Origin: Treponema sp.
GTDB taxonomy: Bacteria > Spirochaetota > Spirochaetia > Treponematales > Breznakiellaceae
Direction: 5' to 3'
DNA length: 34,048 bases
Assembly (NCBI GenBank): GCA_031257105.1
Contig: JAIRPG010000060.1
Location: forward strand, 1 to 34,048
Made by a program: the position numbers and the translations under genes. The notes under the pieces are model-generated. The model did no database searches, was not told the DNA's origin, and saw nothing but the letters and a program-made list of their open reading frames with translations. Positions 44 through 21,996 of the stretch are shown piece after piece. Each line of letters begins with the position of its first letter. Position 1 is the first letter of the stretch.

Positions 44-1375
44 TTATGGCTGCGTTAAAGTTCCCGTTATCCAGCCCCGGGAGAAACGTTGGGCCTCTAC
101 CCACGAATCTTCTCCGGCGCGGGGCAAGGCGTCGGTCAAGGGAAAGCCGTACCGGGAAAAACCTTCCAGCAGCGCCCCGGTGAACCCGCTCCGGTAGAGC
201 GTGGGCAGCGTATCCGGAAGGTTTGGAGGCTCCGGAGCCTCCAAACCGGGAAGGACGCCGGCGGCGACGAGGGCGTCCAAGAAGGGAGCGCGGATAACCC
301 GAACGGTAAAGGGCAGCGCCGGAGCGTCCAGGGCGGCGAACACCGTTTGGGCGTTATCAAAATACTGGAGGTATACGCCCTCAACGGATGCGGGCTCCCC
401 TTCCTCGGAAAGGAGTCTGCCGTCCCAGGGGATATACTCAGGCGGGCCGTCCGCTTCCGGGGGAATCCGGCTTTGCCCTTGACGGCGAGCGGCTTCCCTG
501 CGCCAGGCGTCGCGGAAAGCGCGGCGGAAAGCGCGGCGGAAAGCGCCCTCTTCCCCTTCTCCCCTGCCGCGAATACCGGCGGGTATTTCCGGTGAAATGA
601 CGTAATTTACGTCACCCCCGTCCGGGTGGGCGGCAAGACGTTCCCACGGAATAAAGGAAGCGCCTTCTTGAGCTATCAGAATGAGGCCGTAATCAAATGC
701 CTGGGCGATACCCCCATCCTGGAAAAAAACGTTTCCCCGGGGAGCGCCGTAGCCTGCCGCCCCGTTCGCGCCGCCAATGCCTTTGCTCTTCCCGTAGAAA
801 TCCAGGATAGGGCCGTGAACGAGCGCGGTCTCGCCCTCGCCGTCAACAAAGCTGCCGCCGGCAAAGCTGCCATCGGCAAAGTTGCCGCCGGCGCATATAG
901 CCAGTACCAGGGAGGGGATACCCCAGGAGTTGGCCGTTTCCGGCCCGGTATGACGCCAGTTTTGAACCCAGCTTACCGGATCGCGGGGAGGCCAGCGGTG
1001 AACGAGGTCGCCTCCCAGAACGCCCGCCAGGGGAATCCCTTGAAGCAACCCTTCAATATAGGCGTTTTGGAAGGATTCGGTCATGGGGCTTTTTTCCGCT
1101 TCCGGCACGGACGCTTCCGGCTGCCCCACGCCGGGGGGATACTCTAGCGCGGGAAGGGCGGCGGGGATAAAACGGAACCCTTCCGGTACGGCGTAGTTTC
1201 TCCGGTTAAAGCCGTCCGGTTCCGGAAGCCTCCCGGCGGTTTCGGAATCGCCGTCCGCGCCCGCGAAAGAAGGTGGGGCGGGGTCAGGCGGCTGTTTCAG
1301 CCCGGCGCACGCGCCCAGAAGCAGCGCGGCGGAGCAGGCGAAGAGAAGCGAGTTGCCTCGCCGAGCGTGTTTCAC
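44..1375 (-). CDS. Secreted lipoprotein of unknown function, possible LGFP-like repeats
   Basis: The 443-residue product starts with a basic n-region, a hydrophobic stretch and a lipobox LLGAC ending at Cys23, so it should be exported and lipid-anchored. The mature part begins Pro-rich. Two segments, GYGAPRGNVFFQDGG near residue 210 and YGFPLTDALPRAGED near residue 415, resemble LGFP-type cell-envelope repeats (a G-x-P core followed by a QxFxxG-like end); this is a visual resemblance only. Two in-frame tandem repeats are visible in the DNA: three 15-bp units at 848-892 encoding AGGSF-like units, and three 12-bp units at 512-547 encoding FRRA/FRDA. The start ATG overlaps the stop of the upstream aroF-pheA gene (ATGA), implying translational coupling, although no metabolic link is evident. 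I do not recognise the family. Confidence 0.8.
   Translation of the reverse strand: MKHARRGNSLLFACSAALLLGACAGLKQPPDPAPPSFAGADGDSETAGRLPEPDGFNRRNYAVPEGFRFIPAALPALEYPPGVGQPEASVPEAEKSPMTESFQNAYIEGLLQGIPLAGVLGGDLVHRWPPRDPVSWVQNWRHTGPETANSWGIPSLVLAICAGGNFADGSFAGGSFVDGEGETALVHGPILDFYGKSKGIGGANGAAGYGAPRGNVFFQDGGIAQAFDYGLILIAQEGASFIPWERLAAHPDGGDVNYVISPEIPAGIRGRGEGEEGAFRRAFRRAFRDAWRREAARRQGQSRIPPEADGPPEYIPWDGRLLSEEGEPASVEGVYLQYFDNAQTVFAALDAPALPFTVRVIRAPFLDALVAAGVLPGLEAPEPPNLPDTLPTLYRSGFTGALLEGFSRYGFPLTDALPRAGEDSWVEAQRFSRGWITGTLTQP
512..547. repeat. Three 12-bp tandem repeats inside the lipoprotein gene
   Basis: The unit GCGGAAAGCGCG occurs three times, the last copy with one change at its final base. 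It is in frame and encodes FRRA-FRRA-FRDA on the minus strand. Confidence 0.8.
848..892. repeat. Three 15-bp tandem repeats inside the lipoprotein gene
   Basis: The unit AAAGCTGCCGCCGGC is repeated with one or two substitutions per copy. It is in frame and encodes a Gly/Ser/Phe-rich pentapeptide run (NF-ADGSF-AGGSF type) on the minus strand. Confidence 0.8.
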
Positions 1376-3360
1376 GCCGCAGCCCGGTACATTCCCAGAA
1401 AATGAAAATCTTCGGTGATAGCCTTGAGTTCTCCGAGGGTCTGGGTAAAAAGCCCTTCGGTTTCGGGGATACTCACGTCAACGTAGAAAAGATACCGCCA
1501 GGGCTGCCCCTGAATAGGCCGGGATTCCAGTTTGGATAAATTGATGCCCCGCTCGCTCAAGATTTTGAGGCACGCAAAGAGGCTGCCCGGTTTGTTGGGA
1601 ACGGAAAAAATGAGAGACGCCTTATTGGGCCGCTCCGACCCCAGGCTTGGAGGTACCGGGGCGGCATCCCCCACCCGGCGGGATATGATCGCGAAACGGG
1701 TATAATTGAGAGGATTCGTTTCGATGCCCATCTTGAGAACCTTGAGGCCCTGAGCGGCGGCGGCGGCTTCCCCGGCAATGGCGGCGATGTGCGGGGGAAG
1801 TTCTCCGGCGCTGTTTTTTTCCCTCATGATGGAGGCCACGGCGGCGGCAGTGTTGTTCCACGGTTCAAGCCGCCATTGGGGATGCTTGTCTAGGAATTCC
1901 CGGCATTGCTCGAAGCCCTGGGGGTGGCTGCGGACAATGGTGAGAGAATCCATATCCGCGCCGGGGGCGGCGATAAGACAGTGGACGATCCGCAGCTTGA
2001 GTTCCCCCGCCATAGCAATATCGGGATAACGGATAAAAAGATCGTAGTTTTCGTGGATAGACCCGGCCAGGCTGTTCTCTACCGGCACAACCCCAAAGGC
2101 GGCGGATCCGTCCAGCACGGCGTTGAATACCAGGTTAAAGCCGGGGCAGGAGAGCCGGGGGACATCCTCTCCAAAGGCCCGCATCAATGCCCGCTCGGCG
2201 TACGCGCCGCTTTCCCCGGAGAAGGCGACGGGCAATTCCGCCGATAGCTTCGCTACCGGCGTTAGCGAAGCTACCGGCGTTAGCGAAGCTACCGGTGCGG
2301 CGCGGCGCGGGGCCGAGCCGGTAGACCGGGGGGTTCTGAGTAGTTCCTTGCCCACCACCGGGGCCAGGGCTTCGATGTCCCGCATGAGCCGCTCAAACTG
2401 CTCCGGGTAGAGGGACTGGGGGCCGTCGGAGAGGGCCTCGTCGGGCCGGGGGTGAACCTCCACGGTAAGGCCGTCCGCTCCGGCGGCAATGGCGGCTAGG
2501 GCGGCGGGGCTTATCTTAGCCCGAATCCCCACCGCGTGGCTGGGATCCACGATAACCGGCAGGTGGGAGAGGGCCTTCACCACCGGAATAGCCGAAATAT
2601 CCAGGGTGTTTCTGGTGTACGTTTCGAAGGTGCGGATGCCCCGCTCGCAGAGCGCCACATCCTTCGTGCCCGACGCCAGCAGATACTCCGCCGAGAGGAG
2701 CCATTCTTCGATAGTCGCCGAAGGGCCCCGTTTCAGGAGTACCGGCTTCCCCAGGGAACCTACCCGTTTCAAGAGCTCAAAATTCTGCATATTCCGGGCG
2801 CCGATCTGGAACATATCGGTGAGATCCCGCATCTGCGCGGCCCATTCTGGGGATACTACCTCGGTAACAATCGGCATATCCGCGGCTTCACCGGCGGCTT
2901 TCATAAACTCCAGCCCCTTCATTCCCAAACCCTGGAAGGCGTAGGGGCTCGTTCGGGGCTTAAAGGCCCCGCCTCGAAGGATCACCGCCCCGGATTCCCG
3001 AACCCGTAGGGCGGTCTCCAGGATCTGCTCCCGGCTTTCAACCGCGCAGGGCCCGGCGATGATGGTAATTCGAGAGCCGCCCATCTTCACCGCCGTCTCA
3101 CCTGAACCCACCGTAACAATAGTATCCTCGGCATGGGTTTCCCGTGAGGCCAGCTCATAGGGCTTGGAAGTGGCCGCCACCCGTTCCACGCCGGGGAGCA
3201 GGCTGAGTTCCCGTAAATCCGCCGCGCTTTTACCCACCGCGCCGATGATCAGGTCGTCACCCAGCTTCTGTTCCCGTACCGCGAAGCCCTGATCCCGCAG
3301 ATAGATCAAAATCATCTCTTTATCATGGGCGGAGACGCTTTTAGATAGTATAACGAGCAT
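1372..3360 (-). CDS. Bifunctional DAHP synthase / prephenate dehydratase with ACT domain
   Basis: This 662-residue fusion combines the first committed step of the shikimate pathway (phosphoenolpyruvate plus erythrose 4-phosphate to DAHP) with a late phenylalanine step (prephenate to phenylpyruvate). Residues 1-70 look like the ferredoxin-like regulatory domain of Thermotoga-type DAHP synthases. About 85-340 is the synthase core, with AGPCAVES at 102-109, KPRTSPYAFQGLG, IGARNMQNFELL, CERGIRTFE, VDPSHAVG and VEVHP. A repetitive linker (about 355-375) follows. The dehydratase (about 378-565) has VPVENSLAGSIHE and the catalytic NYTRF motif. The C-terminal ACT domain (about 580-655) carries ESRP, the Phe-binding motif. 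No chorismate mutase module is present. The ATG at 3360 is preceded by AAGGTGAGG. It is probably cotranscribed with the isomerase gene 46 bp upstream. GPS replaces the more usual GMS/GLS in the KRGxSATIEE motif. Confidence 0.93.
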   Translation of the reverse strand: MLVILSKSVSAHDKEMILIYLRDQGFAVREQKLGDDLIIGAVGKSAADLRELSLLPGVERVAATSKPYELASRETHAEDTIVTVGSGETAVKMGGSRITIIAGPCAVESREQILETALRVRESGAVILRGGAFKPRTSPYAFQGLGMKGLEFMKAAGEAADMPIVTEVVSPEWAAQMRDLTDMFQIGARNMQNFELLKRVGSLGKPVLLKRGPSATIEEWLLSAEYLLASGTKDVALCERGIRTFETYTRNTLDISAIPVVKALSHLPVIVDPSHAVGIRAKISPAALAAIAAGADGLTVEVHPRPDEALSDGPQSLYPEQFERLMRDIEALAPVVGKELLRTPRSTGSAPRRAAPVASLTPVASLTPVAKLSAELPVAFSGESGAYAERALMRAFGEDVPRLSCPGFNLVFNAVLDGSAAFGVVPVENSLAGSIHENYDLFIRYPDIAMAGELKLRIVHCLIAAPGADMDSLTIVRSHPQGFEQCREFLDKHPQWRLEPWNNTAAAVASIMREKNSAGELPPHIAAIAGEAAAAAQGLKVLKMGIETNPLNYTRFAIISRRVGDAAPVPPSLGSERPNKASLIFSVPNKPGSLFACLKILSERGINLSKLESRPIQGQPWRYLFYVDVSIPETEGLFTQTLGELKAITEDFHFLGMYRAAA
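2245..2291. repeat. Palindromic/tandem repeat in the aroF-pheA linker
   Basis: TAGCTTCGCTA at 2245-2255 is followed by its reverse complement TAGCGAAGCTA at 2263-2273 and again at 2281-2291, an 18-bp period with CCGGCGT spacers. It is read in frame on the minus strand as VASLTP-VASLTP-VAKL, exactly between the synthase and dehydratase domains. Confidence 0.85.
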
Positions 3361-5433: not shown

Positions 5434-5512
5434 AAAACCGGCGGATCCGAAGCTCCGGCTATGCCGGTGAGCCTTGAAAAGGCTGCGCCGTGTTCTTATA
5501 AAGACAGAGTTT

Positions 5513-6277
5513 ATGCTGCGTTTTTTTGGAAAAAAATTGGAAGAAATGGGACGCTATTTTGTCTTTGTAGGGGAGACGCTGGGGTATCTCTCGCGCCGGC
5601 CCTTCCGTATTGGACAGTATATCGCCGAAATAGAGCGTTTGGGGGTGAATTCGGTGCTGATCATCTTTCTTTCCGGCGGGGCTATAGGGATGATCTTCGC
5701 GCTGCAAATGGCGGCGCTGCTCCAACAGTTCCAGGCGGAGATAGGAACCGGCGCGGCGGTTTCTGTCGCCTTGGCCAGGGAATTGGCGCCGGTTATCACC
5801 ACGTTGATGCTAATCGCGAAGAACGGTTCCGCTATGGCGGCGGAGTTGGGAACGATGCAGGTAACGGAGCAGATAGACGCTCTGGAATCCATGTCCATCA
5901 GCGCGCTGCATTATCTGGTACTCCCCAGAGTAGTGGCGTCAGTGCTGGCCTTTCCGGTACTGACCTTGCTGGCCAATGTGATAGGCGCCGTCGGGGCGTA
6001 CGTTGTTTCGGTGTCCCTGTACGCTATTGATTCAGCCGGTTACTTAGATTATCTCTTCAGTTTTCTGCGCCCTCGTGATGTGTACATAGGGCTCATCAAA
6101 GCGGCGATCATGGGCTTTATCGTCTCTACCGTATGTTGTTTTTATGGACTGCGGACATCCCAGGGAGCCAAGGGAGTGGGAGACAGCGCTACCAAAGCGG
6201 TAGTGGTCTCGTCGGTATCTATTCTTGTAACCGACTATTTCCTCACGAGCTTTATGATACGGATCATATACGCATGA
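5513..6277 (+). CDS. mlaE: MlaE-type ABC transporter permease
   Basis: Inner-membrane permease of a Mla/MCE phospholipid transport system. The PF02405-like core is clear: GAIGMIFALQMAALLQ, LARELAPVITTLMLIAKNGSAMAAELGTMQVTEQIDALESM and several long hydrophobic segments, ending in FMIRIIYA. The frame is open back to a TTG at 5474, but ATG 5513 gives 254 residues, the usual family size, so I chose it; neither start has a strong Shine-Dalgarno. The stop overlaps the ATG of mlaF (ATGA), so the two subunits should be made together. Confidence 0.92.
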   Translation: MLRFFGKKLEEMGRYFVFVGETLGYLSRRPFRIGQYIAEIERLGVNSVLIIFLSGGAIGMIFALQMAALLQQFQAEIGTGAAVSVALARELAPVITTLMLIAKNGSAMAAELGTMQVTEQIDALESMSISALHYLVLPRVVASVLAFPVLTLLANVIGAVGAYVVSVSLYAIDSAGYLDYLFSFLRPRDVYIGLIKAAIMGFIVSTVCCFYGLRTSQGAKGVGDSATKAVVVSSVSILVTDYFLTSFMIRIIYA

Positions 6278-7026
6278 AGCCGATTATCCGTACCCAAAGT
6301 TTGAGCAAAACCTTCAATAACCACGCGGTACTCAAGAATGTGAACTTAGCGATCCCCGAAAAGTCGATATGCGCCATTATCGGCCAGAGCGGTACCGGCA
6401 AAAGCGTTCTTTTGAAGACGATCCTGGGTATGTTAAAGCCCGACAGCGGAAAAATCTGGTTCAAAGACACCGAATTGACCGCTTTGGATCGAAACGGTAT
6501 GATTGCTTTGCGAAGATGTTTCGGCTATTCCTTCCAGAACGCCGCGCTTTTCGATTCTATGACCGTGGAAGAAAACCTCGCTTTTCCTCTACGGGAAGCG
6601 CTGCGGATCAAAAATCAGATAGAAATAAACCGGCGGATAACGGAATTGCTCGATTGGATTGAATTGCCCGGTATAGCGTCTAAGCGGCCTGACGAATTAT
6701 CGGGAGGTATGCGAAAACGGGTGGGCGTGGCTCGAGCGCTGGTTATGCGCCCGGAGGTGCTTTTCTTTGATGAGCCCACCACCGGCTTAGACCCGGTTTT
6801 ATCGGAAACTATTAACAATCTGGTAGTCCGGGTAAACCGGGAATTGGATATTACCTGCGTGATGATCACCCACGATATACCGGCGGCCTTTCGTATCGCG
6901 GATAGGATAGCCGTGCTGGATCAGGGGTATATCATCGCCGACGGAACGCCCCTGGAAATCGCCCGATCGGATCACCCGCTGGTACGGGATTTTATCCGCA
7001 TCTCCTTTGTGAATTTAGAGGTATAA
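6274..7026 (+). CDS. mlaF: MlaF-type ABC transporter ATP-binding protein
   Basis: The 250-residue ATPase is the energy subunit of the MlaE/F/D system on the cytoplasmic face. Walker A GQSGTGKS lies at 37-44; also seen are the Q-loop YSFQNAALFDS, the signature LSGGMRKRVGVARAL, Walker B LFFDEPTTGLDP and the switch MITHD. ATG 6274 overlaps the mlaE stop. An in-frame extension back to 6133 exists but would run through the coding region of mlaE and is rejected. Its stop codon shares one base with the start of the MCE gene. Confidence 0.95.
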   Translation: MKPIIRTQSLSKTFNNHAVLKNVNLAIPEKSICAIIGQSGTGKSVLLKTILGMLKPDSGKIWFKDTELTALDRNGMIALRRCFGYSFQNAALFDSMTVEENLAFPLREALRIKNQIEINRRITELLDWIELPGIASKRPDELSGGMRKRVGVARALVMRPEVLFFDEPTTGLDPVLSETINNLVVRVNRELDITCVMITHDIPAAFRIADRIAVLDQGYIIADGTPLEIARSDHPLVRDFIRISFVNLEV

Positions 7027-8489
7027 TGTCACGGTATTTAAAAGTAGCCTTGTTTTTTATTCTTCTAGGAGGCGCCGGAGGAACTTATATCATCCTTTCC
7101 TCAGACGGGCTTAACGCCTTTAATACAAAGCTGTACAGCGCGACACTGCAAGACGCCACCGGCCTTTCCACTCGCTCCAAGGTGTACCTCGCCGGAGTGG
7201 CGGTAGGCAAAATTGAGGAAATTCTCTTGGAGGGAGCCGAGGCGCGGCTTAAAATCGCCTTTTTGAAGCATATTGAGATCCGCGAAAACGCCCGGCTCGC
7301 CCGGAAATCTTCTTCCATTCTGGGTACTTCTATTCTCGCCTTGGATCCGGGGACGGAACTGAGCCCTCTCATCCCCGAAGGAGGCCGGATCAATACCGAG
7401 CGGAACAGCCAGGACATAAACGCCGTAATGGGAACGGTTCAAGATGTCGGAGGACAGTTTTCGCAGTTGCTGGAGGAGCTTCAAGCTAATCAACTACAGG
7501 CGCTGACCGCCGCCCTAGAGAATTTTAACGCTCTTACCGCCAAGCTCAACGAGCGATCCGATGTGGAACTGGAGCGGGTATCCAGGATTCTGGAGGCGGC
7601 GGCGCTGATCGCTGAACAGACCCGGCGGATTCTAGAAGACCGAGAAACGGATATCGAGGGAGCGGCCGTGGACATCCGCGCCGCCCTCGAAAATCTGCGA
7701 ATGATTACCGAAGATATTAGGCAGGGACAAGGGAACCTCGGACAGGTTCTGTACGACGAAAAACTTTACCATAATCTCTTGTCCATAACCGGGAAAACCG
7801 GTACGGCGATAGATACGGTGCAAACTACCCTGGATACGGTGAATTCCGTAGCGGTCAACGTGAACGGCGTCGTCGACAGCGCCGCCGAGATCGTGGATCG
7901 GGCCTTAGGACTGGGCATACAGGTAGACGCGCTGTCCCAGTATGATATACGCGCCGGAACCATGCGCGCCGGGGCGTCTCTCCGGCTGGAGCCGGCGTCC
8001 AATGATCGCTGGTACCGCATCGGCGTTAGTTCACTTCCCGAAGGCATCGTTTCCCGTACCGTAAAGGAAACGACGACCTCGGGCGGTCTTGTTCCAGGGA
8101 CGATTCGGGAAGATACGATCGAAACCAAGTACACCGTAGCCTTTAACGTTGAATTAGCCCGGCGCTTCGGCCCGATAACGCTCCGTGGCGGCCTCTTGTA
8201 TAACACAGCGGGGCTGGGGATTGATATTCAGCCTATACGTTGGGTAAGTCTTTCCGGCGAAGTATTTGATTTTAAGGCCGGAGAAGTTCCGAATCTGCGA
8301 AGCGTCGTGACCATCTTCCCCTTCTTCGATCCTAACGGAGACAATCCCTGGAACTGGCTCTACTTCCAGGGCGGGGTCAACGACATCCTTCGGGATAAAC
8401 GAGATTTCTTTCTCGGCGGGGGGGTGCGTTTCGCCGACCGGGAAGTACGGGGGCTTGTGGGCTTGGTACCCTTCGGAGGCCGCTCGTAA
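7026..8489 (+). CDS. MCE-domain (MlaD-like) lipid transport protein with extra C-terminal domain
   Basis: The 487-residue protein has an N-terminal hydrophobic anchor (about 5-27) and an MCE domain at about 35-115 (YSATLQDATGLSTRSKVYLAGVAVGKI to the L-DPG region). A predicted helical, coiled-coil-like segment covers about 130-290. The last about 170 residues are rich in alternating aromatic/polar strands (ASLRLEPASNDRWYRIGVSS, KYTVAFNVELARRFGPITLR, FFLGGGVRFADREVRGLVGL). E. coli MlaD is about 183 residues, so this is far longer. The C-terminal part looks like beta-hairpins of an outer-membrane or barrel-like domain, which would let one polypeptide span the periplasm; this is inference. It is the last gene of mlaE-mlaF-mlaD; no MlaB or MlaC is encoded here. 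Confidence 0.88.
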   Translation: MSRYLKVALFFILLGGAGGTYIILSSDGLNAFNTKLYSATLQDATGLSTRSKVYLAGVAVGKIEEILLEGAEARLKIAFLKHIEIRENARLARKSSSILGTSILALDPGTELSPLIPEGGRINTERNSQDINAVMGTVQDVGGQFSQLLEELQANQLQALTAALENFNALTAKLNERSDVELERVSRILEAAALIAEQTRRILEDRETDIEGAAVDIRAALENLRMITEDIRQGQGNLGQVLYDEKLYHNLLSITGKTGTAIDTVQTTLDTVNSVAVNVNGVVDSAAEIVDRALGLGIQVDALSQYDIRAGTMRAGASLRLEPASNDRWYRIGVSSLPEGIVSRTVKETTTSGGLVPGTIREDTIETKYTVAFNVELARRFGPITLRGGLLYNTAGLGIDIQPIRWVSLSGEVFDFKAGEVPNLRSVVTIFPFFDPNGDNPWNWLYFQGGVNDILRDKRDFFLGGGVRFADREVRGLVGLVPFGGRS

Positions 8490-19942: not shown

Positions 19943-19995
19943 ATCGCTCCGATTACTTGAAAGCGCCTTATCTTTGGGGCATAGTGATAGTATTC

Positions 19996-21996
19996 ATGAT
20001 CCCAAGCCAGGAAGACGCACTTTACGAATTTCTCGAAAACGCGACGGAACCTTTTACGTTGGAAAATGTAACTCACTTTGTCCGTATGATAGTTTCGCAG
20101 AAAACGCCCCATTTAAGCTCGGAGATTGCCGCCCTTATCAATATCCGGAAAGCGGCCTTCCCGCTGGGGGCGAATCGCTGGATTTCCCGGCGGGGTTACT
20201 TTGAGCCGCTGCGGTTTGCTATCAATCCCAGCCGGCTTGAACTCCTCAACGGTATTTTGATCCCGGGGCATCGCTGCGTACCCTTTGCCAATCCTATGCT
20301 GATGCCCCAGGAATATGTTTTTTACTGGCGCAGGCATCTGGTTCCCGTTACTACCACCGAAGGGACGCCGGATGATTTCTACCCTTATTACACCATTTTT
20401 GGGGAAGAATACGCCCCTCAGTACGTGGCCCGGGACAACCCGGAGAATGAAGCGGCCTTTAATAGCGATCCTTACGAAGATCCGTCTGATGTTTCCATTC
20501 ATACCCTGGATATGCGGAATATCTACCGGGAAACCTCTTTCGTTCCAGGAGATCGCTTTGTGGTGCGGACGTTGGACTGGAAAGCCGGCATCTTTGAACT
20601 TGAACGGGTGGGCAAGGAAGAATGGGATCCGTCCGATATAGACGCCTGGGTTGAGGCCGCGGAAACCGGCTTTGAAGATTCCTTCCGAAACCTGGGCCCG
20701 GGGGCTTCCACCGATGAGCAGCTCGCCTTTGCCTACTGGTACGGCGGCAAGCGGATGCGGGATGTACCGGCTCTTTCGCTGGAAGACTTCCTCTACGAAA
20801 AGACGGATCGCATCGAGACGGTATCCTACGGCATCGAGACCCGTTTCTGGTACGCGGGCCGGGACATTCCTGATTGTAAGACCCTGGAAGGCCCTCAGGC
20901 GATTCCCGACCGAACCGCTATCGAGGAACTGCTCTACCGGTACGAGATCCCTATTTCTGAATATGTCGTACAATCCTATGCTCGGGATGCCCTCTACCGC
21001 AACGATCCGGATAACTCCCGCCTGGTGGAGCGCATCGCGCCTCCGACGGTGAGTATGGATAAACGGAGCCGGGACATTCTGGCCGAATACGCCGCCGATA
21101 TTTACGAGGAATTCAGCGAAACGTATAATATGTTTACCGATAACGCCATGGGCTCTATACGGCAGCGGGTGGGAGAACTGCATACCGCGGTGATCGATCT
21201 GGTAGCCAGACTTCGGAATGGGGGCATCGAGCTTTCGTGGCTGCCGAAACATACCTTTGTGGTGCTGTCCCAGATACAGTGCCACGCGGCGGGCCTGATG
21301 GAAGAACTCGATATGGAAGACGGCCCCTCCGCCGATGAACTGGAATTCATGGATAATTCTCTAGACAGCATGATTGAAACCTACGAAGATATGAAGGAGT
21401 TGATTGAAGAAGCGCTGAACAGCTTCCGCCGGAGCAATATTTCGGTGGTGAAATTTGGGAAACGTTCCCGCCTGGGTGCGATGTGGTGGACACTGCAGCT
21501 TGGACTGGGAGGAACCGATGTCTGGCGCCGGATAATCCTTCCGGAGAACTACAGTCTTACGAAGCTTCATGGGATCATCCAGATACTATTCGAGTGGAAC
21601 GAATCTTTTTCCTATCAATTTACCGGGGACGATGAGGCGTTGGACCTCAAAACCGATTTGGAAACGTTGAACAGGCGGAATTTTGGGGAAATTCTTTACG
21701 AATACGGAGCGTACTGGACGGTGAAGATCATGTTTCTTGCCCGTCAAGAGGCCGGCGAGGAAGAGCGAATTCGTTGTGTGTCCGGCGCCGGGGCGGCCCC
21801 TCCGATTTTTATCGACGGCCCCCTGCGCTTTAAAAAATTTATTTCCGCGTTGGAACGGGGCGATAAAAAGGAACTGCATCTAGTTCAGGAAAAAATGGGC
21901 GCCGAATTTAATCCGGACGAATTTGACATAGAGCGGTGTAACCGCCGGCTAGAATCCCGCCTTTTTACAAAAAGTCAGAGACGGGATTTAGTCTGA
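19996..21996 (+). CDS. Large protein with C-terminal PRiA4_ORF3 domain
   Basis: About 666 residues. The last about 170 residues match the plasmid pRiA4b ORF-3 (PF07929) domain: WWTLQLGLGGTDVWRRIILPENYSLTKLHGIIQ-like start, LFEWNESFSYQF, and LRFKKFISALERGDKKELH. The first about 500 residues have no recognised domain. They begin MIPSQEDALYEFLENATEPF, are acidic and mostly soluble, and end in a helical region (FMDNSLDSMIETYEDMKELI). The frame is open to TTG 19957; ATG 19996 is preferred because the extension adds a hydrophobic stretch with no Shine-Dalgarno, but this is uncertain. It is followed 10 bp later by the PTS EIIA gene, suggesting a shared transcript. PF07929 is of unknown function and not proof of mobility. 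Confidence 0.8.
   Translation: MIPSQEDALYEFLENATEPFTLENVTHFVRMIVSQKTPHLSSEIAALINIRKAAFPLGANRWISRRGYFEPLRFAINPSRLELLNGILIPGHRCVPFANPMLMPQEYVFYWRRHLVPVTTTEGTPDDFYPYYTIFGEEYAPQYVARDNPENEAAFNSDPYEDPSDVSIHTLDMRNIYRETSFVPGDRFVVRTLDWKAGIFELERVGKEEWDPSDIDAWVEAAETGFEDSFRNLGPGASTDEQLAFAYWYGGKRMRDVPALSLEDFLYEKTDRIETVSYGIETRFWYAGRDIPDCKTLEGPQAIPDRTAIEELLYRYEIPISEYVVQSYARDALYRNDPDNSRLVERIAPPTVSMDKRSRDILAEYAADIYEEFSETYNMFTDNAMGSIRQRVGELHTAVIDLVARLRNGGIELSWLPKHTFVVLSQIQCHAAGLMEELDMEDGPSADELEFMDNSLDSMIETYEDMKELIEEALNSFRRSNISVVKFGKRSRLGAMWWTLQLGLGGTDVWRRIILPENYSLTKLHGIIQILFEWNESFSYQFTGDDEALDLKTDLETLNRRNFGEILYEYGAYWTVKIMFLARQEAGEEERIRCVSGAGAAPPIFIDGPLRFKKFISALERGDKKELHLVQEKMGAEFNPDEFDIERCNRRLESRLFTKSQRRDLV

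Follow-up and report, generated by a model that had tools for sequence, protein, structure and literature searches.

What is the role of an MCE protein of 487 residues in a position where an MlaD of about 180 residues would be expected, and could one such polypeptide reach from the inner membrane to the outer membrane? The window analyzed here is an entire contig of 34 kb (34,048 nucleotides) from the genome of a Treponema sp. of the family Breznakiellaceae, and this source genome is 86% complete. Its named relatives put the genome with the termite-gut and free-living spirochaetes listed as Treponema sp., with Breznakiella homolactica, and with Gracilinema caldarium, for which the family name is Breznakiellaceae (PMC13067680). 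Elsewhere in the window, 1372-3360 (-) encodes a 662-aa fusion of DAHP synthase and prephenate dehydratase with an ACT domain, and 19957-21996 (+) encodes a protein of 679 aa that ends in a plasmid pRiA4b ORF-3-like domain (PF07929) and whose first 500 residues match no other family.

The genes mlaE, mlaF, and mlaD form an overlapping three-gene unit with the gene for the long protein, MlaD2, in the last position; on its 3' side there is a gap and then a convergent gene on the opposite strand. At 6274, the mlaF start codon (ATG) and the mlaE stop codon share the sequence ATGA. A 297-aa ORF from 6133 was an over-long call for mlaF, and it was shortened to 250 aa with the start at 6274. The mlaD2 start overlaps the end of mlaF as TAATG, with AGAGG upstream, and the reading frame at 7026-8489 (+), with an ATG start, gives an MCE protein of 487 aa, confirming the length given for the gene in the preliminary description. 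The Pfam MlaD model PF02470 matches residues 34-109 with 44.6 bits (cut-off 25.1), so that MlaD2 has a single MCE domain behind an N-terminal transmembrane helix, as in the MCE/MlaD family. With the adjoining mlaE permease and mlaF ATPase, it has the gene content of an MlaEFD lipid ABC transporter. The proteobacterial equivalog TIGR04430 (OM_asym_MlaD) is not reached by MlaD2 (47.6 bits, cut-off 135). The features of the locus are as follows.

5474..6277, + strand: MlaE-type permease (MlaE2, 267 aa; start position uncertain); PF02405, 250 bits (cut-off 22.5); TIGR00056, 224.6 bits (cut-off 212.2)
6274..7026, + strand: MlaF-type ABC ATPase; ABC_tran PF00005, 119.9 bits; MlaF model NF008809, 180 bits, under its cut-off
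7026..8489, + strand: MlaD2, MCE protein with a predicted C-terminal barrel, 487 aa; ORF, Pfam, alignment, AF2 model
7029..7100, + strand: inner-membrane helix, residues 2-25; AF2 model and hydrophobic sequence
7125..7397, + strand: MCE domain, residues 34-124; PF02470, pLDDT mostly about 75-95, matches to MlaD/MCE proteins in the PDB
7452..7907, + strand: helical "needle", residues 143-294; low-confidence helices in AF2, profile aligning into the helices of 8fed_B and 13hr_I
7914..8435, + strand: predicted C-terminal beta-barrel domain, residues 297-470; AF2, outer-membrane barrel matches, face alternation, conservation
8046..8129, + strand: polar hairpin of variable length, residues 341-368, probably an extracellular loop; lacks face alternation and shrinks in homologues
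8403..8432, + strand: last strand, residues 460-469 (DFFLGGGVRF), putatively beta-signal-like
8436..8486, + strand: conserved C-terminal tail, residues 471-487, with the motif DREV[KR]GLVGL; AF2 models and alignment

The full-length AF2 model of MlaD2 contains a transmembrane helix (residues 2-25), the MCE strands (34-124), helices (143-294), and twelve strands (297-470), followed by a helix at residues 471-478 of the tail that is predicted with low confidence. Thus, the earlier observation of about 170 residues of alternating amphipathic strands after the MCE domain and a helical stretch was accurate. Since the pLDDT of the needle region is 29-48, the span across the periplasm is a prediction only. 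Positions 6-262 of the family profile align with the mycobacterial Mce1 subunit 8fed_B, reaching its helical part; together with the low-confidence helices at 143-294, this alignment to MCE needles points to the extended helical segment that follows the MCE domain and characterizes a transenvelope MlaD. Mce1 (8fed) and Escherichia coli PqiB likewise have an MCE domain and then a long helical tunnel; however, the subunits of the heterohexameric Mce1 each contribute a single strand to the tip, PqiB contains three MCE rings, and neither has a full barrel per chain (PMC10665443).

The C-terminal domain modeled alone by AF2 has twelve strands, with a pLDDT of 84.2 (about 95 in the core) and a pTM of 0.72. 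A Foldseek search with this model gave no match below E = 0.001, but its best rows are, with few exceptions, outer-membrane barrels. Most of the best rows in VIA-align 2 are also outer-membrane barrels, led by the Dot/Icm porin I (Z about 15) and the ten-strand OpcA (Z = 15.0), with the designed transmembrane barrel TMB10 (Z = 14.3) and Pla (Z = 13.7) as further ten-strand barrels. Ten of the 12 strands show an alternation of hydrophobic and polar faces of 1.46, compared with 0.74 ± 0.17 in within-strand shuffles, of which 1 in 20,000 was as strong. The alternation is absent from the strands at 341-351 and 358-368, and the 34-residue stretch containing them, 337-370, is reduced to 7-14 residues in five homologues; for both reasons, we read the modeled domain as a barrel of ten strands that carries a polar hairpin at its surface. 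By prediction, it has the roughly ten strands and the hydrophobic exterior of a transenvelope MlaD barrel. A Pfam search of the barrel region gave no family and one chance match. When the barrel profile was searched against PDB sequences, designed TPR proteins appeared; we rejected these matches, 24-26 residues long with no stretch passing alone, as a composition artefact.

In the last strand, F462, G466, and R468 are invariant, and G464 and F469 are present in 48 of 49 proteins. The sequence DFFLGGGVRF resembles a beta-signal and may act as one. Since both ends of the barrel would be periplasmic, the stretch 337-370 and the variable loops 308-311, 415-422, and 453-459 would lie on the outside, and the periplasmic side would hold the C-terminal tail and loop 431-444, which has 14 residues and is conserved.

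Does the organism have separate partners for this system? The preliminary description had noted that no MlaC or MlaA is encoded nearby, and this holds for the whole genome at the sensitivity used: a profile search found no MlaA and no MlaC above the cut-off. Because the genome is only 86% complete, the search was extended to 27 relatives with the barrel-type system (26 rated high quality by the tool), and there too neither MlaA (0/27) nor MlaC above the cut-off (0/27) was found. Thus, 28 genomes have the barrel-type system without MlaA or an above-cut-off MlaC, and the separate partners that would speak against a bridging MlaD did not appear. The best MlaC match in the source genome is partial and sub-threshold (21.8-22.8 bits, cut-off 26). 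It covers the C-terminal 90 residues of a 328-aa secreted-looking protein on another contig (L031:1480-2466, contig C79), in which no other family was recognized, and one relative (G599) has a similar weak match. As the match is below threshold and has only this one counterpart in the 27 relatives, we did not count the protein as an MlaC partner. The source genome encodes one BamA-type Omp85 protein. LpxC was found neither in this genome nor in 150 family genomes (0/150) or 12 separately checked carriers (0/12), with positive search controls in E. coli and other genomes. The call on LPS is based on LpxC, which catalyzes the committed step of LPS synthesis; by this one marker, the carrier spirochaetes appear to be without LPS, and the hosts do not show the LpxC that would accompany an LPS-dependent asymmetry.

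We suggest, with a probability of roughly three in four, that MlaEFD2 is a three-gene transenvelope Mla lipid transporter of the kind known from Veillonella parvula. In V. parvula, MlaEFD works without MlaA and MlaC, and its MlaD of 419 residues starts with a transmembrane domain and an MCE domain, continues with about 150 helical residues, and closes with a barrel of ten strands, which was recovered in the outer-membrane fraction (Grasekamp et al. 2023, PMC10665443). The spirochaete system resembles it by architecture, with the same three genes, the same lack of MlaA and MlaC, the same order of transmembrane helix, MCE domain, helical part (about 150 residues), and barrel, and, in our reading of ten strands plus a hairpin, the same number of barrel strands. 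Features that may set MlaD2 apart from the V. parvula protein are the polar hairpin of variable length that separates strands 3 and 4 and the conserved tail after the last strand; furthermore, its hosts have no detectable LpxC, and some relatives have a tandem barrel-less MlaEFD with a TPR lipoprotein. The E. coli system (MlaFEDB with MlaC and MlaA) has MlaE, MlaF, and an MCE-domain MlaD in common with MlaEFD2. However, E. coli MlaD has 183 aa with neither needle nor barrel, it needs MlaC and MlaA, and its known role is in LPS asymmetry (PMC10665443).

In the proposed mechanism, MlaE and MlaF would form the ABC machine in the inner membrane, beside which MlaD2 would be anchored through its N-terminal helix. 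Six copies of MlaD2 would form a ring of MCE domains, continued through the periplasm by a hydrophobic tunnel of helices, and the protein would end in the predicted ten-strand barrel with its variable polar hairpin, folded by BamA and inserted into the outer membrane. This bridge would take the place of the MlaC shuttle and the MlaA lipoprotein. The cargo would most likely be phospholipid, probably moved in the retrograde direction, and, since the hosts appear to be without LPS, the process may maintain an asymmetry between phospholipid and glycolipid or lipoprotein. The predicted architecture, the fold matches, and the absence of MlaA and MlaC provide support for the preliminary proposal that one polypeptide is anchored in the inner membrane, spans the periplasm, and ends in an outer-membrane barrel that replaces these partners. 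That proposal also called the protein an alternative lipid conduit design; the architecture is supported, but the design is not new, having been published in 2023 (PMC10665443).

Does lipid pass through the barrel? MlaD2 might span the envelope with the barrel as an anchor or spacer only, in which case lipid would exit from the needle on the periplasmic side of the outer membrane; alternatively, transport might be anterograde. The authors of the V. parvula study judged a single barrel too narrow for the passage of phospholipid, and the ten-strand barrel of MlaD2 may therefore be a mere anchor; a barrel is present in only about 10% of MlaD proteins (PMC10665443), and the order-wide system in the spirochaetes is the neighboring barrel-less one. 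However, the phenotypes of the V. parvula mutants point to retrograde lipid handling by the whole system (PMC10665443). We regard this possibility as unlikely, with a real claim to attention, and it departs from the best explanation only in detail.

Is the C-terminal domain a membrane barrel at all? It might instead be a soluble periplasmic barrel of a lipocalin-like type that binds lipid, caps the needle, and passes lipid to a carrier or to the membrane surface. A minority of the VIA-align 2 rows are soluble lipocalin-like barrels of ten strands, namely Rv0813 (Z = 11.1), OlmO (Z = 10.3), the CpeS-like 4tq2 (Z = 9.5), and Ycf58 (Z = 8.7), and MlaD2 runs past its last strand into a conserved tail. 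However, the AF2 model does not favor a compact soluble fold, the outcome that would have spoken against the preliminary proposal, and the top matches of the model, at Z of about 15 and in nearly all Foldseek rows, are outer-membrane barrels. Furthermore, the polar face of the strands is more conserved than the hydrophobic face (entropy 0.86 vs. 1.15, one-sided p = 0.01), which runs counter to the expectation for a lipid-binding interior and fits, as indirect evidence, a polar core with a lipid-facing exterior, the orientation of the faces being read from sequence rather than coordinates. The V. parvula barrel of the same architecture was, as noted, recovered with the outer membrane (PMC10665443). 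A soluble barrel is thus improbable, at odds of several to one against.

The C-terminal domain is kept over a broad set of proteins. A search for the same C-terminal domain in other MCE proteins, proposed in the preliminary description, found it in 48 further full-length MlaD2 homologues, most of them 48-64% identical and one 38%; 19 homologues from a whole-genome search were aligned as a separate set. The last 190 residues hold invariant positions, as the MCE domain does. That the extension is an unrelated or chance fusion with no envelope function, which has nothing in its favor besides the lack of a Pfam family, is refuted by its conservation, with invariant residues throughout, in 49 proteins from several spirochaete families, and it can be dismissed.

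Whole-protein homologues are present in 22 of 79 searched genomes, counting the source genome, and all are from Breznakiellaceae. The barrel profile matched 11 of 393 Spirochaetota genomes, in Breznakiellaceae and three other families, and MlaE together with synteny identified two more genomes with the barrel system, from a fifth family. The barrel-type MlaEFD of G329 and G336, both from outside Breznakiellaceae but within its order, is nested among Breznakiellaceae sequences in the MlaE tree, possibly as a result of horizontal transfer or because the genomes are misplaced. Candidate barrel relatives outside the spirochaetes, from a plasmid search, were rejected, as the matches were confined to the MCE and helical part.

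The source genome also has a second, barrel-less system on another contig (L034:4149-7552, contig C17), in which mlaE1, mlaF1, and the gene for a 333-aa MCE1 protein are followed by that for a lipobox-bearing TPR lipoprotein. The two systems share an MlaEF-type ABC transporter and a protein with one MCE domain, but the second is without the C-terminal barrel, has the TPR lipoprotein after MCE1, and has an MlaE from a distinct clade (100/100 in the MlaE tree). Its gene order is repeated in relatives, among them the f3 genome G267, where the search for a barrel domain was negative. In six early-branching relatives (L106-L111) and a G. caldarium record (L072:20-6386), both systems form one seven-gene row, E1-F1-MCE1-TPR lipoprotein-E2-F2-MlaD2. 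This tandem arrangement hints that the barrel-less and barrel-type systems are functionally paired. A hand count over the 45 listed family genomes with a completeness of 90% or more and a contamination of no more than 5% gave 20 with the barrel type (19 of which also have the barrel-less type), 22 with the barrel-less type alone, and 3 with neither. We rejected co-occurrence as evidence of a link; these counts are statistically uninformative, and the tandem order is the sole sign. It is conceivable, if rather doubtful, that MlaEFD2 and MlaEFD1 with the TPR lipoprotein make up a paired two-way system that keeps a glycolipid/lipoprotein outer leaflet free of phospholipid in LPS-free spirochaetes.

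How do these results relate to what is known of Mla in spirochaetes? Our literature search for MlaD in spirochaetes found no dedicated study. The V. parvula paper reported barrels in 103 MlaD sequences, widespread in diderm Terrabacteria and, beyond these, mostly from certain Proteobacteria and phyla related to them, and stated that Mla is lost in most LPS-less bacteria and that Borrelia and Treponema are without Mla homologues because they are without LPS (PMC10665443). A 2024 review noted that LPS-less spirochaetes retain a modified Mla and proposed an asymmetry with respect to other glycolipids (PMC11784454). The design, the proposed mechanism, and the retention of Mla without LPS all have precedents; what is added to them is the occurrence of a barrel-type Mla in Breznakiellaceae and in a small number of further spirochaete families, together with the tandem arrangement.

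The 2023 model ties Mla to keeping phospholipid out of the LPS leaflet, with Mla usually lost together with LPS (PMC10665443). Here, some members of a spirochaete family in whose genomes LpxC was not found keep a barrel-type Mla, among them Breznakiella homolactica and Gracilinema caldarium, in agreement with the 2024 review (PMC11784454), so that the role of Mla without LPS can be asked in these organisms. If the two-way pairing is true, it would mean that the original function of transenvelope Mla is separate from LPS.
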